Assembly: GCA_947174945.1 (NCBI GenBank) | Contig: CAMWKZ010000007.1 | Coordinates: 16,866 to 80,865 of the forward strand | Length of the DNA: 64,000 nucleotides | Source of the DNA: an uncultured Prevotellaceae bacterium | GTDB taxonomy: Bacteria > Bacteroidota > Bacteroidia > Bacteroidales > Bacteroidaceae | Reading direction: 5' to 3' | In this document: piece after piece, positions 4,694-28,942 of the stretch | Position numbering within the stretch: the first letter of the stretch is position 1 | Layout: each line of letters begins with the position of its first letter | Made by a program: the position numbers and the translations under genes | The notes under the pieces: generated by a model | Databases searched by the model: none | Told to the model about the DNA's origin: nothing | What the model saw: only the letters and a program-made list of their open reading frames with translations

Positions 4694-6499
4694 CTATCCC
4701 AATAGATGTTCTATATCTTGCTGTGGAAGGATGCAAAGCACGGCTCGCCCATCAGGAGTATAGTTTACATTATCGCAGGCAAAAAGGTCATTGACTAATA
4801 TATCCATCTCTTCATTCGTCAACAACTGGCCATAAGGAATAGCCGCATGACGAGCCAGCGTAAGGGCGAGGGTCGAGTTAGCCGTAACAGAAGCACGACT
4901 TTCCGAACCTGGTGTCGCAAGCAATTCCTGTACCAAAGCAACAGGTTGCAACCCCTCAATGCCAGCAGGCACACCATTGACAGCATAGCTCGCTGGCCCC
5001 AATGGAGTCAGTTCAAAGCCAAGAGCAGTAAGCGAGGGCAACAAATCATTGAGCAAAACGGCCTCGGAAGGCGACAGTTCCATCACTTCAGGAAAGAGTA
5101 ATCTCTGGCTCTTGGCTGGTGCCTCGGCCAATTGGTGGAGATAACGCTCATAGCGTACTCGGATATCGGCGCGATGCTGGTCAATTATCATTAACCCCGA
5201 CTTAACAGCGGTCATCACATAACGCCCCTTATACTGATAGTGAACAGGGGCAATGTCGGTAATGATGGGAGAGGCTGACATTGTTTCCGACTGAGGAACA
5301 GGCTCGTCAAAAAGGGCTGGTTGTTCAACGGGCTGCTCTTGGGGCAAGCCTTCGTAGAGACGCTGCCAGTCTTGTGAGGGCTTTTGGCGAAAAGGGTTAT
5401 ACTGAGGATTGGAAAGCACCTTGGGGGCTGCAATTCCATCCTGTTTTACTGAAGTGAATGCCGGAATGTCGGGTTTACCTTCTGTGTCAAAGTCAATCTG
5501 GGGTATCTCGCAAAACTGGCCGATTGCATCCTTAACGGCTGCCGCCAAAATCTGCCAGATAGCTTGTTCGTTCTCAAACTTAATCTCTGTCTTGGTAGGA
5601 TGGATATTCACATCAATATCGGCAGGATTAACTTCGAAATATATAAAATAAGGTACGTGCGTACCTAATTGTATTAATCGGTCGTAGGCTTGTTGTACCG
5701 CTTTGTGGAAATAAGCATGTTTCATAAAGCGCCCATTAACAAAGAAATGCTCATGAGCCCCTTTCTTGCGAGCCGTTTCTGGCTTACCCGTAAAACCTGT
5801 AATACGGCACATAGCCGTATCAACATTAACAGACAATAAGTCCTGTCCATAGCGACGGCCATAAACATCGGTAATACGCTGGCGAAGCGAACCGCTGCGC
5901 AGATTCATGAGTTCCTGTCCGTTAGAATGTAAAGTGAAATGGATGGAAGGATAAACCAAAACGATGCGTTCAAAGGCTGTCAGAATATTGTTCAACTCCG
6001 TCGCATTAGACTTTAGGAACTTACGCCGGGCGGGCACATTAAAAAACAGATTGTTAACCGTAAAGCTGCTGCCGACCGAGCACGAACAAGGCTCCTGACT
6101 CTCAACACGAGAGCCTGAGAGTTGCAAACAAGTTCCCACCTCAGCAGAGGCTTGCCGAGTGCGTAGCTCCACTTGCGACACGGCAGAAATAGAAGGCAGT
6201 GCCTCACCACGAAATCCCATCGTATGGAGCGCAAACAGGTCATCAGCCTTGCGTATCTTAGAAGTAGCATGACGCTCAAAGGCCAGACGAGCATCAGTTT
6301 CTGACATACCACATCCGTCGTCAATAACCTGAATAGATGTACGTCCAGCATCAACCACTAACACGTTGATAGTGGTGGCACCAGCATCCACCGCATTCTC
6401 AACCAGCTCCTTGATAACAGAAGCCGGCCGCTGTATCACCTCACCAGCAGCTATCTGGTTAGCAACACTATCGGGAAGTAGCTGTATGATATCTGCCAT
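4694..6499 (-). CDS. mutL: DNA mismatch repair protein MutL
   Basis: [51 protein letters not shown] motifs. Confidence 0.97.
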
Positions 6500-19004: not shown

Positions 19005-19090
19005 AACGTCGGCAAAGGTACGAATAAGTGAGAACAAAACAAAATAAAACCTGTCTTAATTTTGATTTTGACAAACGACATCCTTGCACG

Positions 19091-24117: not shown

Positions 24118-24303
24118 CTATTTCCCAAATAGAATCTTCAATATCCAAGGATACATCGCAACTATCATTATAAGAATGGCAATAAACTCTGGATAGAACA
24201 TTATCAGCAACACAAGACCAAACCAAATGAGTAACTGCATTATCCCACTCTTCACGCTGACTCTAGCCTGTTCCTTTTGATTGTTTTTTCTTTTGCTTCC
24301 CAT
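24118..24303 (-). CDS. small (61 aa) membrane protein
   Basis: [61 protein letters not shown]. Confidence 0.5.
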
Positions 24304-24430
24304 AAACTATCATCCAAATATTTATCCCCCAAAAATTATGTTTCTGATTCATTGAGCCTGCGTGACACGTTCCTATTAATAAAAGTGACGTGCCCTAACC
24401 GCCCCCAAATGCAGCATCATCTTTAAACAA

Positions 24431-25054
24431 TTATGGGTTTATATCGGTTGAACATTCACATTGGCAGCACTTACTATAGTGCGATGGATAGACAAGGCCT
24501 GAAACAAGTTGTTCAAGTTGAAAACCTTCTTTGTTTAGCGTTGTTGCAAGTTGCTTTCTTACAGTCATTTCAAGGATGCCTCTATTTGCAATTATCTCGT
24601 CAGTTGTCAGATTGTTAATTTGGCTTCTAAAGGCTTCTTTTGTATAGTCGAACACAGAAATATCGATAATATCACTTAACTCACTCCTGTATTTCCTAAA
24701 AATACGAGTTGCCTGGCCCTCAATCATTTTCACAGAGACAGTTGGATAAACAGTAAACTCCAGACCATCCTTTGCATAAGCGCTGAATGCAGGATAATCA
24801 ACCTTTTGCACGAAGGTAGGGTATTCATATACCACCTGAGTAAATGGATTGTACCATACAAAACCTATAACAGGAGACACATCATTCCCTCCCTCCTCTG
24901 AGCCATACAGATTAACTAAGATACCTTCTTGACCAGACTCTATTCTCACACAGCATACAGATACCAACTTTGCCATTGATACCACTATCAATGCCATCAA
25001 TGCAATTGCGGATATTATGATATACTTCTTCATTGCAGTTATAGTAATTACCAA
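24431..25054 (-). CDS. SPFH/band-7 (prohibitin-like) protein, apparently C-terminally truncated
   Basis: One N-terminal TM, SGQEGILVNLYG..., VKMIEGQATRIFRKYRSELSDII, ...ANRGILEMTVRKQLATTLNKEGFQLEQLVSGLVYP. Confidence 0.6.
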   Translation of the reverse strand: MVITITAMKKYIIISAIALMALIVVSMAKLVSVCCVRIESGQEGILVNLYGSEEGGNDVSPVIGFVWYNPFTQVVYEYPTFVQKVDYPAFSAYAKDGLEFTVYPTVSVKMIEGQATRIFRKYRSELSDIIDISVFDYTKEAFRSQINNLTTDEIIANRGILEMTVRKQLATTLNKEGFQLEQLVSGLVYPSHYSKCCQCECSTDINP

Positions 25055-25707
25055 AGGTGCCGATTGTTTTGCATCGGCAAAATTTGCGTGATTATACCAA
25101 ACTTTTCAAGGTCTCTATTGTTATCGTTAATATTATACATCTCAATAACAGTATCTCCATACTTAATCCATTCTTCTTCGCTGATATGAAAATAAGCCAA
25201 TGCTTCTTTCAATGTTAATACATTGTCTTTTAATCCTTTATAATTAGCCCAATTGTCTATAATATGTTGACGGATATATTCTGGTGTCTTTTTAGAATAG
25301 TCCGAGTGTTCACGAGACATCACTTTAATAACACCAACGTAAAACAAATGAAGCCCAATCTTTTTCCAGCATTCCTCAGATAAACCTAAAATACCTAATG
25401 ACTTTTTAAAATTATCATCTACAGTCAGCAATCGCTCTCTGTAATCTTTGTCGGAATAATTGTCAAATCTGTATAAACTTCCATTGCGGATTGCAAGAGC
25501 CTCTCTTGCAAGTCTTATCTGTTTTTTTTCAGTTGGTTCAGTTATTTTATATACAAACCCTGAAATTGAGTCAGCAGCAGAGTATGCTAATGCCTCAGCT
25601 GCTTCTGCATATCTTTCTCGTTTTGTTTCTTTCTTTGAATCTTGAGCCATCAAATAGATAAATAATAAAACGATGATTACAAATGCAATGATAGTTTCCA
25701 TAATCAA
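25048..25707 (-). CDS. hypothetical protein with one N-terminal TM
   Basis: Clean ORF overlapping the next gene; no recognised domain. Confidence 0.55.
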   Translation of the reverse strand: MIMETIIAFVIIVLLFIYLMAQDSKKETKRERYAEAAEALAYSAADSISGFVYKITEPTEKKQIRLAREALAIRNGSLYRFDNYSDKDYRERLLTVDDNFKKSLGILGLSEECWKKIGLHLFYVGVIKVMSREHSDYSKKTPEYIRQHIIDNWANYKGLKDNVLTLKEALAYFHISEEEWIKYGDTVIEMYNINDNNRDLEKFGIITQILPMQNNRHLW

Positions 25708-25729
25708 GTCTATAATTAATTCTCCAAAT

Positions 25730-26152
25730 TTATTTATATTTAGGTAAATAATCGTATGAAATCAATGCAGAATTATCATACGATGAATACATAATATGCA
25801 CTTGGAAATACGAATAGAAGAAAATAATAGACTTTTCGTCTCCAATTTTGTGTATATAATTGGTTTTGAGAAAAGATTTTACCATAGCTAAAAACCAGTT
25901 GTACGGATAACTGTCGTCACCTTCTACATACATGGTTTCGCATACCAGACGATTATCTTTGACGATAAAAGCTATTTCATTACCATATTTATACATTGTC
26001 CCCTCGGCCGTCTCTGTCCAATATTTCAATTCTGGGAACTTAACTCTAAGTTGTTCCAAGCTTATACCCAAGTTGTTTTGTGGCTCTTGGGCCATAATTG
26101 GTAAAACAAGGCAAAATAGAGATACTAAAATTACAATTTTTGTTTTCATCAT
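25730..26152 (-). CDS. hypothetical secreted protein
   Basis: Signal peptide MMKTKIVILVSLFCLVLPIMAQ. Confidence 0.55.
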   Translation of the reverse strand: MMKTKIVILVSLFCLVLPIMAQEPQNNLGISLEQLRVKFPELKYWTETAEGTMYKYGNEIAFIVKDNRLVCETMYVEGDDSYPYNWFLAMVKSFLKTNYIHKIGDEKSIIFFYSYFQVHIMYSSYDNSALISYDYLPKYK

Positions 26153-26967
26153 TTTATTTGTATTGATTTTAATATTTCACTGATTACTTTCATTTGTTCT
26201 TTATGCTTTCTGTTGTCTGTTGTTGCAGTAATAATGAGGGTTGTGTTATCAGCCTTTTTAACTATGTATTGGCTACTATGTAATGTGTAGCCTTGCAATT
26301 CAATGGAACTTTCCAACAGGCAACCTTTACAACCGCTAATTTGTGTGTTGCTTATCCCCAACTGTTTGTAATTGGAAACCAGCTGCTTATTGTTTTGGGA
26401 AGTTTGACGAGCGAGATACAAAGCACTTTCTTCCCATTTCTTGTTTGACACAATAATATTTATATTAGGGCGAAAATCTACATCATTTTTTGGCTTTTCC
26501 ATAATCTGTACAGCAATAGATGTGTTTGCCGTTACCTGATTATCATCTTGAACAATCTGCCATGATGAAGGATAACACAGGCTGAAATGTCCATTAGAAT
26601 AGCGATTGTCAAGTTTTGTATTTATTTCGGTTTCTATAGCGGTAATATTTTCTTTTGGCGATGTTGTAGGCGCTTCTGCCAATTTTGTATCCTTTATAGT
26701 AGCTGCTTTATTCAAAATATTATGTACTCTTTCTATGTCTGCATAAGTGTTTTGATGTGTAGAAGTACATTCCAACAAATCACAAGAATGCTCCTCCATG
26801 TAACCATGTTTTATTAAGTCTCTATGAAGAGCTTCTACCCCACTATGAAACTCGTATTCACTTGCCAAATCACTATCAATATAATCCCATACGGTTTTTT
26901 CTCTTGGGTCTTTACAACTTATGACGACAGCAAACCCAAATAAGCCAAATAAAAGCCTTTTATTCAT
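26149..26967 (-). CDS. hypothetical lipoprotein with PsbP/DUF1795-like C-terminal half
   Basis: Lipobox FAVVISC; NGHFSLCYPSSWQIVQDDN motif. Confidence 0.5.
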   Translation of the reverse strand: MNKRLLFGLFGFAVVISCKDPREKTVWDYIDSDLASEYEFHSGVEALHRDLIKHGYMEEHSCDLLECTSTHQNTYADIERVHNILNKAATIKDTKLAEAPTTSPKENITAIETEINTKLDNRYSNGHFSLCYPSSWQIVQDDNQVTANTSIAVQIMEKPKNDVDFRPNINIIVSNKKWEESALYLARQTSQNNKQLVSNYKQLGISNTQISGCKGCLLESSIELQGYTLHSSQYIVKKADNTTLIITATTDNRKHKEQMKVISEILKSIQIK

Positions 26968-26973
26968 AATACC

Positions 26974-27096
26974 TTAACGTCTTGATAATTCTTTACACAT
27001 ACGGAATAAGAACAATGCGATGAACAAGGCTATCCACCAAGCATTTTTCTCTATCCATGACTTTTGTTTTTTCTCGTTGTTTTCATTTGTTTCCAT
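26974..27096 (-). CDS. micro-ORF, 40 aa single-TM protein
   Basis: METNENNEKKQKSWIEKNAWWIALFIALFLFRMCKELSRR translated by hand; below ORF-track cutoff. Confidence 0.4.
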   Translation of the reverse strand: METNENNEKKQKSWIEKNAWWIALFIALFLFRMCKELSRR

Positions 27097-27173
27097 TGCT
27101 CAAATTAATTAAAAGTTTTATAATTCCATAAATAATCACTGTGATTAAAAGTATTGTTATCATTGTAAGCCCT

Positions 27174-27551
27174 CTATTTGCTTTTCGCCATAAAAAATCC
27201 TATCACTACTACAATTATAAATAGTACAAAACCTATGGATATAAGTACATTTGCTATGGCGCAAAGCCATGCTAATAATGGCAAGAGGGAAATAATGCCG
27301 CCCCCAATAAAAAGAAGACCGAGACATCCAACAAACATATTGTCCTCTCCATTATTGGATTCTGACATATTGATAATCAAATAGCCAATAGGTATAGCTA
27401 TAAGGGCTATCACTAATCCAATGCCTACCTCATTTCCATTTGGCAAGCCAATATCAGCATCGCCGTAATACCTATGGCCAGAGTAATCCCTTGCAAAAGC
27501 AGTAAAGGATGTAAGCAAAGACAATAGTAATATAGAGATACGCTTTATCAT
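27174..27551 (-). CDS. small multi-TM protein
   Basis: Signal peptide plus three hydrophobic segments. Confidence 0.5.
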   Translation of the reverse strand: MIKRISILLLSLLTSFTAFARDYSGHRYYGDADIGLPNGNEVGIGLVIALIAIPIGYLIINMSESNNGEDNMFVGCLGLLFIGGGIISLLPLLAWLCAIANVLISIGFVLFIIVVVIGFFMAKSK

Positions 27552-27566
27552 TGTTGTATCATTCTT

Positions 27567-27728
27567 TTATATTTTTTTCTTTGGTCTCAAAAGGAAATAA
27601 GCAGGTAAGAAAGTTACAAGACTAACACCAATCAAGCCGCCAATAGTTGTAGCAACATTTGGTGCGATGGCTTGTGGCAGACATATTAAGCCTACCACAA
27701 TCAGAAAAATTCCAAACACTTTTTTCAT
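27567..27728 (-). CDS. micro-ORF, 53 aa two-TM protein
   Basis: MKKVFGIFLIVVGLICLPQAIAPNVATTIGGLIGVSLVTFLPAYFLLRPKKKI translated by hand. Confidence 0.45.
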   Translation of the reverse strand: MKKVFGIFLIVVGLICLPQAIAPNVATTIGGLIGVSLVTFLPAYFLLRPKKKI

Positions 27729-27943
27729 AGTTATAATAATTTTGCTTTTTCTTCTACTTCAACTACCTCACTATAATATACTGATGAATACTGAAGGCAG
27801 CAATTATAAGACTGCAAACCCAGAGCACCCAAAGTAGAATGATAATGTTTTTGCGTTTCATTTGTATATAACCATTATATAACCCTTATCAACACCCCAG
27901 ATTCGGCTTGTTTAGTTTTTCGTTTCACTTTTGCTTATAATAC

Positions 27944-28216
27944 AAAAAGGCGTAGGTGTCTGCTCTTCTGCCCATCCTGGAACTGTAGGCCTTCGCATTG
28001 CCCCTCTACACAGGATAGACAACGCTGTTAGCCCACGCCAGTACGAACTATATACGACGAAGGTATAATAGAGACGCACCACGTAGACGTTTCGGTTGCC
28101 ATCTGCCTGTTGTAGAGTTGGAGTTTGCGAAGTTCACAGTTCACAACGACAGACGTTTGAAAACGTCTTTCTTAATATATAAGACCGCCCGCTCACCCAT
28201 TATGGACTAACGAACG
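27944..28216 (-). ncRNA. candidate structured ncRNA/attenuated leader
   Basis: Nested complementary segments 27949-27956/28032-28039, 27957-27961/28017-28021, 27974-27979/28011-28016, 27984-27988/28006-28010, followed in transcript sense by TTTTT; upstream hairpin 28151-28168. Confidence 0.6.
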
Positions 28217-28222
28217 ATGATG

Positions 28223-28253
28223 CAAAGATAAACATAAATTCTGAAAACGCAAA
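28223..28253 (-). promoter_or_regulatory. Bacteroidota promoter: TTTG (28250-28253), 19-nt gap, TATCTTTG (28223-28230)
   Basis: Matches the -33 TTTG / -7 TAnnTTTG consensus on the minus strand. Confidence 0.65.
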
Positions 28254-28355
28254 GAGTTTTCGGAAGAAAAGCAAAGGCAGAAGACTGAATAGCACAAAAA
28301 CAGAAACTTTGTGCATGTTACTGAAGTTTTGTGGTAAAAGCAAAGGTAACAATTG

Positions 28356-28388
28356 GGGCTGAATCCACAAAATAGAATCAGCCCTTTC
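28356..28388 (+). terminator. hairpin terminator candidate
   Basis: gggctga / tcagccc then ttt. Confidence 0.4.
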
Positions 28389-28617
28389 TTATTTTGCTCA
28401 AAGTTTTAGCGGACACTAATAGAATAAAATTCGGGAAAACTCAAGCCTTTGGGAAAAATCTTTTGTATGGAGCAATTTGAATCCCTTCCCTCAGCACCGT
28501 GCACCATTTGGAGCCTCCATCCACTCAGAAAACGACATCAACGCGACATAAAATGGGGCTCAGTAGCATATTGTGGGGATTTAATTTGTAGAGTATAGAA
28601 AATTGTCAACTTTTGAA

Positions 28618-28697
28618 ATGAATATCGTAATGCTTGAACACTTAGCCAAGATAGTACTTCCCAAGGAGATACCGGATTTTTTCTTCTCTCGGGGGAT
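28618..28697 (+). pseudogene. possible N-terminal remnant of an IS transposase accessory ORF (ISAon1-like)
   Basis: MNIVMLEHLAKIVLPKEIPDFFFSRGIH then stop; resembles (L)xxILPKEIxDYF starts of that family. Confidence 0.35.
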
Positions 28698-28807
28698 ACA
28701 TTAAGGAATTTCGATATACAGATACGAGAGAGGGAAATAGAAGGATATATATAATAATATACTTTCTACTCTCATTTTTTTTCGTATGTATGGAAATTCC
28801 TTAATGT
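28698..28807. repeat. 110-bp near-palindromic element with perfect 15-bp terminal inverted repeats
   Basis: acattaaggaatttc (28698-28712) / gaaattccttaatgt (28793-28807); inner sequence also imperfectly self-complementary. Confidence 0.8.
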
Positions 28808-28942
28808 AGCAATGTGACATTTCCCCTCTTCGCAGAGCGAATGAGGCACTTGCTGAGTGTAAGTCTCGCGGATGCCCTGTGTGAATGGCGATTTACTTTT
28901 TTAAAGTTGTGAAAGAGGCGACAATGAGAAGGACGAAGCGGT

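Follow-up and report, generated by a model that had tools for sequence, protein, structure and literature searches.

A modular, pseudoknotted leader RNA family of Bacteroidales with a probable role in transcription attenuation

To our knowledge, few regulatory RNAs are known in gut and rumen Bacteroidales. The closest described systems to the RNA reported here are riboswitches with a terminator expression platform (orphan riboswitch candidates). These share with it a covarying complex fold in a 5' leader, an intrinsic terminator before the gene and many copies per genome. Our RNA lies in a 64,000-nucleotide stretch of DNA from an uncultured Prevotellaceae bacterium (the whole stretch is called the window below). 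It differs from such riboswitches in that its targets are without a common pathway, it falls outside Rfam 15, and a conserved element past the terminator covaries with the terminator. The HMP-PP (thiS) riboswitch, as presented in PMC6478431, has a terminator-embedded aptamer and, like our RNA, carries its structured core within the terminator-stem loop. The RNA family is much larger, triple-pseudoknotted, confined to Bacteroidales and placed before unrelated genes, and it gave no sequence match to this riboswitch in the Rfam scan. T-box leaders are likewise long leader RNAs (200-300 nt) with a terminator, but no Rfam T-box match was found for the family and its targets are not amino-acid genes. 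Bacteroidales-1 (6S-like, RF01693) and 6S-flavo (RF01685) are also structured Bacteroidetes RNAs but are not leaders; RF01693 was found elsewhere (L090:1052-1228), with no match at the RNA family. PMC8040213 describes the Bacteroidetes candidate RNAs HMP2_4205 and HMP2_1881 close to genes for TPR and radical SAM proteins, two types that are also found downstream of our leaders. These are predictions of only 132 and 108 bp, compared here by description, and they might be fragments of the leader RNA family. Literature searches returned no description of the family, which may have been predicted earlier under another name. Among orphan riboswitch-like leaders the family is set apart by its after-terminator partner, its modular spread and its 16-17 copies per genome.

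A preliminary description of the window had proposed a new structured non-coding RNA here, to be checked by an Rfam scan and a search for covariation. No Rfam 15 covariance model matched the RNA family at the gathering score, and relaxed scans (E up to 5 or 1) gave nothing relevant there, only chance matches. Together with the strong covariation and exact promoter described below, this upholds the proposal, and the window copy proved to be one member of a large, multi-copy and apparently undescribed family of structured RNAs in Bacteroidales, a multi-copy nature that was not visible from the window itself.

Promoter, predicted transcript and fold of the window copy

The predicted transcription unit comprises two features.

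28223-28253, minus strand: Bacteroidetes-type promoter, -33 TTTG and -7 TATCTTTG with 19 nt spacing, an exact match
27944-28220, minus strand: structured leader RNA of about 275 nt, based on full-length homologues, folding z and covariation, with a predicted start site

The promoter TTTG-19-TATCTTTG at 28253-28223, like all sequences quoted in the preliminary description, was found on the minus strand where it had been reported. The pattern TTTG-N19-TANNTTTG has 3 exact matches across the 64 kb window, this promoter among them, against 0.13 expected by chance. Across the family, the -7 box TAnnTTTG was present in 100 of 106 copies, and 84 of those 100 carried TTTG/TTG about 19 nt upstream; a standard sigma-70 scan is uninformative for the Bacteroidetes phylum. 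A further exact promoter match, TTTG-19-TACCTTTG, was observed at 28341-28371 on the minus strand; it precedes the promoter of the RNA itself by about 120 nt and could possibly yield a longer transcript. The third exact TTTG-19-TAnnTTTG promoter match in the window lies at 19013-19043, also on the minus strand.

The RNA region folded better than 200 of 200 shuffles (z = -4.0). The region had been described as holding no good ORF. Short ORFs are present, as a protein-coding or spurious repeat would have, but an open forward frame across the RNA was found in 0 of 28 homologues and the spacing between conserved anchors was not a multiple of 3. The RNA is therefore non-coding; the protein-coding reading was ruled out on these grounds and we assign a negligible probability to a coding or spurious repeat.

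The helices, their partners and the terminator of the window copy are as follows.

28204-28211, minus strand: H0 5' arm GTTAGTCC, partner 28034-28027
28170-28184, minus strand: H2 hairpin TCTTA/TAAGA, 95% of cells paired, 1 pair with double-sided change
28151-28168, minus strand: local hairpin AGACGTTTTCAAACGTCT; 28168-28161 doubles as the H3 5' arm, partner 28092-28085
28142-28153, minus strand: H4 5' arm, partner 28114-28102, 99.7% paired, 2 pairs double-sided
28127-28141, minus strand: H5 5' arm AACTGTgaaCTTCGC, long-range pseudoknot with 27996-27981
28041-28079, minus strand: H6 stem GTGCG...CGTAC, 100% paired, 1 pair with double-sided changes
28032-28039, minus strand: P1 5' arm GGCGTGGG, terminator stem, nearly invariant family-wide, 98.2% paired in 64 diverse copies
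28011-28025, minus strand: PKa GCGTTG and PKb TCTATCCTG, 5' arms of the crossing pseudoknot, from pairing in 64 diverse copies
27968-28000, minus strand: 3' arms of PKa (CAATGC), H5 (GCGAAGgccTACAGTT) and PKb (CAGGATGGGC), from coupling and pairing
27949-27956, minus strand: P1 3' arm CCTACGCC, whose 5' edge ACACC (27959-27955) also pairs with the post-terminator motif
27944-27948, minus strand: intrinsic terminator U tract, from sequence

Covariation, the second proposed check, was strong. For the 28 homologues that belong to the sequence class of the window copy, an explicit 61-pair structure had 99.0% of cells paired, with 100 double-sided changes as compared to 24.8 when shuffled and 8-16 when the partner was slid, and 99.1% pairing was found among 64 diverse tails. 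The fold that the compared sequences predict is pseudoknotted and not the four nested helices first described. Two of those four, GGCGTGGG:CCTACGCC and ATCCTG:CAGGAT, are kept in 98-100% of homologue cells and stand. TGTCT:AGACA and TGTAG:CTACA did no better than shuffled and compete with supported helices, and both were rejected. The hairpin at 28151-28168, also described earlier, is real, and its 5' arm pairs equally with 28092-28085, which is the family-wide pairing; this H3 helix was 98.6% paired in the 28 homologues but mostly invariant and so counts as weak evidence.

The strongest coupled columns (top APC signals) of a 121-sequence alignment fell in H5. This helix was 100% paired in the 28 homologues, all 6 of its hypervariable pairs were compensatory, and past these six pairs some homologues carry CTTCG/CGAAG and others TCTCG/CGAGA. 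PKa and PKb, which cross each other within the terminator stem P1, were 99.2% and 100% paired in the 64 diverse copies, and 4 PKb pairs showed double-sided changes. Through H0 the 5' segment pairs with the bases directly past the P1 5' arm, and the GTCC end of its 5' arm also pairs with a downstream GGG to form a local hairpin, H1.

Copies across genomes and position before genes

The family, its structure, the cis covariation on both sides of the terminator, the gene position and the modularity are all shown by computation. A nucleotide search identified paralogues in the RNA's own genome and full-length homologues of about 80% identity in the genus, and at least 117 stretches in GTDB genomes matched a composite motif, among them Prevotella, Bacteroides, Phocaeicola, Parabacteroides and Muribaculaceae records. 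A covariance model was then built from the 3' domain; its calibrated E-values are rough, and at E up to 0.01 it gave 17 matches in the own genome, 16 of which held at 1e-5. Matches were found in 22 of 39 same-genus genomes, and 66 of 392 Bacteroidales genomes had at least one. The genus is probably Prevotella, since a close homologue from it, L012 (genome G001), matches L059, a Prevotella sp. record, without a difference over 1592 nt. None was found in the 296 other genomes of the phylum sample, and searches of phage, plasmid and viral collections gave no member at the sensitivities used.

The window copy lies in a 4.8 kb accessory insertion (24129-28942) between der and era, which holds the RNA and about 8 small genes. 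Most relatives in the genus have just 16-308 bp between era and der and lack the small-gene cluster at this junction, consistent with the preliminary description of the RNA as lying upstream of an accessory cassette, which it heads. Downstream of the RNA are:

27763-27861, minus strand: first downstream ORF, a 32-aa membrane-type peptide MKRKNIIILLWVLWVCSLIIAAFSIHQYIIVR, AUG 157 nt from GCGTTG, the usual family distance
24431-27728, minus strand: rest of the accessory cluster, ORFs of 53, 125, 40, 272 (DcrB-like lipoprotein), 140, 219 and 207 aa (Band 7)

The distance from the GCGTTG block to the first AUG, taken over 103 copies, had a median of 156 nt and lay within 130-185 nt in 83% of them as compared to 22% at random points. 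The RNA thus combines two features looked for in a riboswitch, a position as a 5' leader directly upstream of ORFs and an aptamer-like structure with covariation. The preliminary description had left two options, a standalone sRNA or an attenuator of the leftward small-protein cluster. Because 83% of copies keep an almost constant spacing to the AUG, these sequence comparisons favour a leader, and with it the attenuator option, over a lone sRNA gene. A free-standing family of trans-acting sRNAs would consist of fully terminated copies whose 3' ACUCCC/ACACC pairs with GGGAGU/GGUGU loops of mRNAs, the neighbouring gene being one target. The RNA's own promoter and strong terminator fit such a family, and a released RNA of about 275 nt is plausible as an sRNA; the nearly fixed distance to the gene does not fit, and inspection by eye found no second promoter between the U tract and the AUG.

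The genes behind the leaders are diverse. Downstream proteins fell into 55 unrelated groups among 109 leaders and included Cys-rich radical-SAM target peptides (13/91), BspA-type LRR proteins (7/91), FHA and LytTR products and many lipoproteins; those encoded behind the own genome's copies comprise, among others, an AbiH protein, a C10 peptidase, Sel1-repeat proteins and a LytTR regulator. They have no common pathway that names a ligand. Pairs of leaders 80-90% identical preceded related downstream proteins in only 24 of 479 cases, and the similarity of leaders of unrelated genes ran from the promoter to the U tract or just past the post-terminator motif. As near-identical leaders precede unrelated genes, promoter, RNA and terminator form a reused module, and the limits of the similarity indicate that this module moves independently of the genes it serves.

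A non-autonomous, MITE-like mobile element with incidental transcription would also be multi-copy, modular, patchy and located before unrelated genes. Mobility does not, however, explain the compensatory base pairs or the fixed layout of promoter, RNA and AUG, no member was seen in the phage, plasmid and viral collections and no flanking repeat family was found around the cassette, making this explanation very improbable. The same gene diversity bears on a protein-dependent or RNA-polymerase-modifying antitermination leader (a put-like RNA, or a UpxY/LoaP-type NusG-paralogue loading site) with one regulator for all copies. A very large conserved RNA with an identical fold before unrelated genes suits this idea, and patchy presence (22 of 39 Prevotella genomes) would be expected if a trans factor were needed; no recurrent regulator gene was found beside the copies, where the recurring clusters are the targets themselves. 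We consider it unlikely but plausible.

One copy on the same contig, L157 (G000:C7:1523-1623), lies ahead of a gene of the AbiH family (Pfam E 1.5e-34), so that at least one phage-defence-type gene is under the leader. A Tat-type Cys-rich peptide gene (TIGR04117-like) was repeatedly found behind the leader (L046, L047, L051, L058, L065, L068-L070, and also L078, L082, L093, L137, L146 and L149), often with partner genes of about 400 and about 316 aa.

Terminator stem, post-terminator motif and proposed mechanism

The features of an intrinsic terminator were found across the family, namely the P1 stem of 8 bp, paired in 98.2% of 64 copies, followed by a U tract in 99 of 106 copies. One further conserved element follows it.

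27883-27907, minus strand: post-terminator motif GCCGAATCTGGGGTGTTGATAAGGG, in which GGTGT (27896-27892) complements ACACC at 27959-27955

We compared the complementarity of each copy to its own segments with that of mismatched pairs in 91 copies, with kinship not modelled. Cis complementarity was 13.5 as compared to 11.2 for H0 and 15.8 as compared to 12.4 for the post-terminator motif with the P1 3' edge; none of 60 permutations reached the observed value in either case, and both controls were negative. The post-terminator pairing is invariant within one sequence class, where it gave no covariation signal; the signal arises only across classes. Copies of the same genome with different seeds match their own motif (ACACC/GGTGT in the window copy, CTCCCAC/GTGGGAG in L007). 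In the window copy, the stem that flanks the motif is imperfect.

These results also bear on the trans-acting sRNA family. The RNA does expose short complementarity to 5' UTR motifs, as that reading needs, but the pairing covaries, copy by copy, with the motif behind the leader itself and not with a common target. This cis covariation makes a trans role less likely as the main one, and we regard the sRNA family as quite unlikely.

The RNA probably acts in cis as a riboswitch-like leader that attenuates transcription, and it belongs to a large Bacteroidales family. For this leader we infer how transcription, termination and switching proceed, which way the switch works and where any ligand would come in, as follows. 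RNA polymerase would initiate at the TTTG/TAnnTTTG promoter, and a pseudoknotted core would form from the long-range H5, the crossing PKa and PKb and the 5' helix H0. The terminator stem P1 would then close round this core, in which case transcription would halt at the U tract and free a short RNA of about 275 nt. If P1 were blocked or delayed, either by the core or by the binding of a ligand, an ion, an RNA or a protein, the polymerase would read through. The post-terminator motif may then pair with the freed 3' edge of P1, holding P1 open and preparing the gene about 60-80 nt downstream for translation. Promoter, RNA and terminator would act as a single module placed before many accessory and surface-protein genes that are unrelated to one another.

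The post-terminator pairing uses the same 3' arm as P1. The motif is transcribed only after the U tract and so cannot itself decide termination, and since H0 is compatible with P1, no conserved P1-competing antiterminator strand is proven before the U tract. A covarying element past the terminator is an unusual arrangement.

More tentatively, the leaders could constitute an unrecognised, widespread riboswitch-like class with up to 16-17 copies per genome, one shared cue and a regulon of unrelated surface, peptide and regulator genes, in which a terminator-embedded pseudoknot core is joined to a post-terminator partner and spreads as a plug-in promoter-leader module. Leaders before adhesin-like BspA proteins, Cys-rich radical-SAM peptides, AbiH and small LytTR/XRE regulators imply a signal or factor that coordinates accessory genes. 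With its own promoter and terminator the module is directly testable in laboratory commensals, and it is a potential genetic control part.

Three observations concern the terminator arms. The P1 5' arm GGCGTGGGC is almost invariant family-wide, yet its 3' partner drifts via G-U pairs; this near-invariance suggests a second constraint, such as an additional binding partner. In the copy L158 (G000:C10), a variable region about 60 nt upstream of P1 contains AAGCCCACGCC, the exact complement of the invariant GGCGTGGGCTT and possibly a built-in antiterminator. In L041 (about 6300-6400) the terminator 3' arm (GAATGAAAGAAACTCCCTCG) is tandemly duplicated ahead of the U tract.
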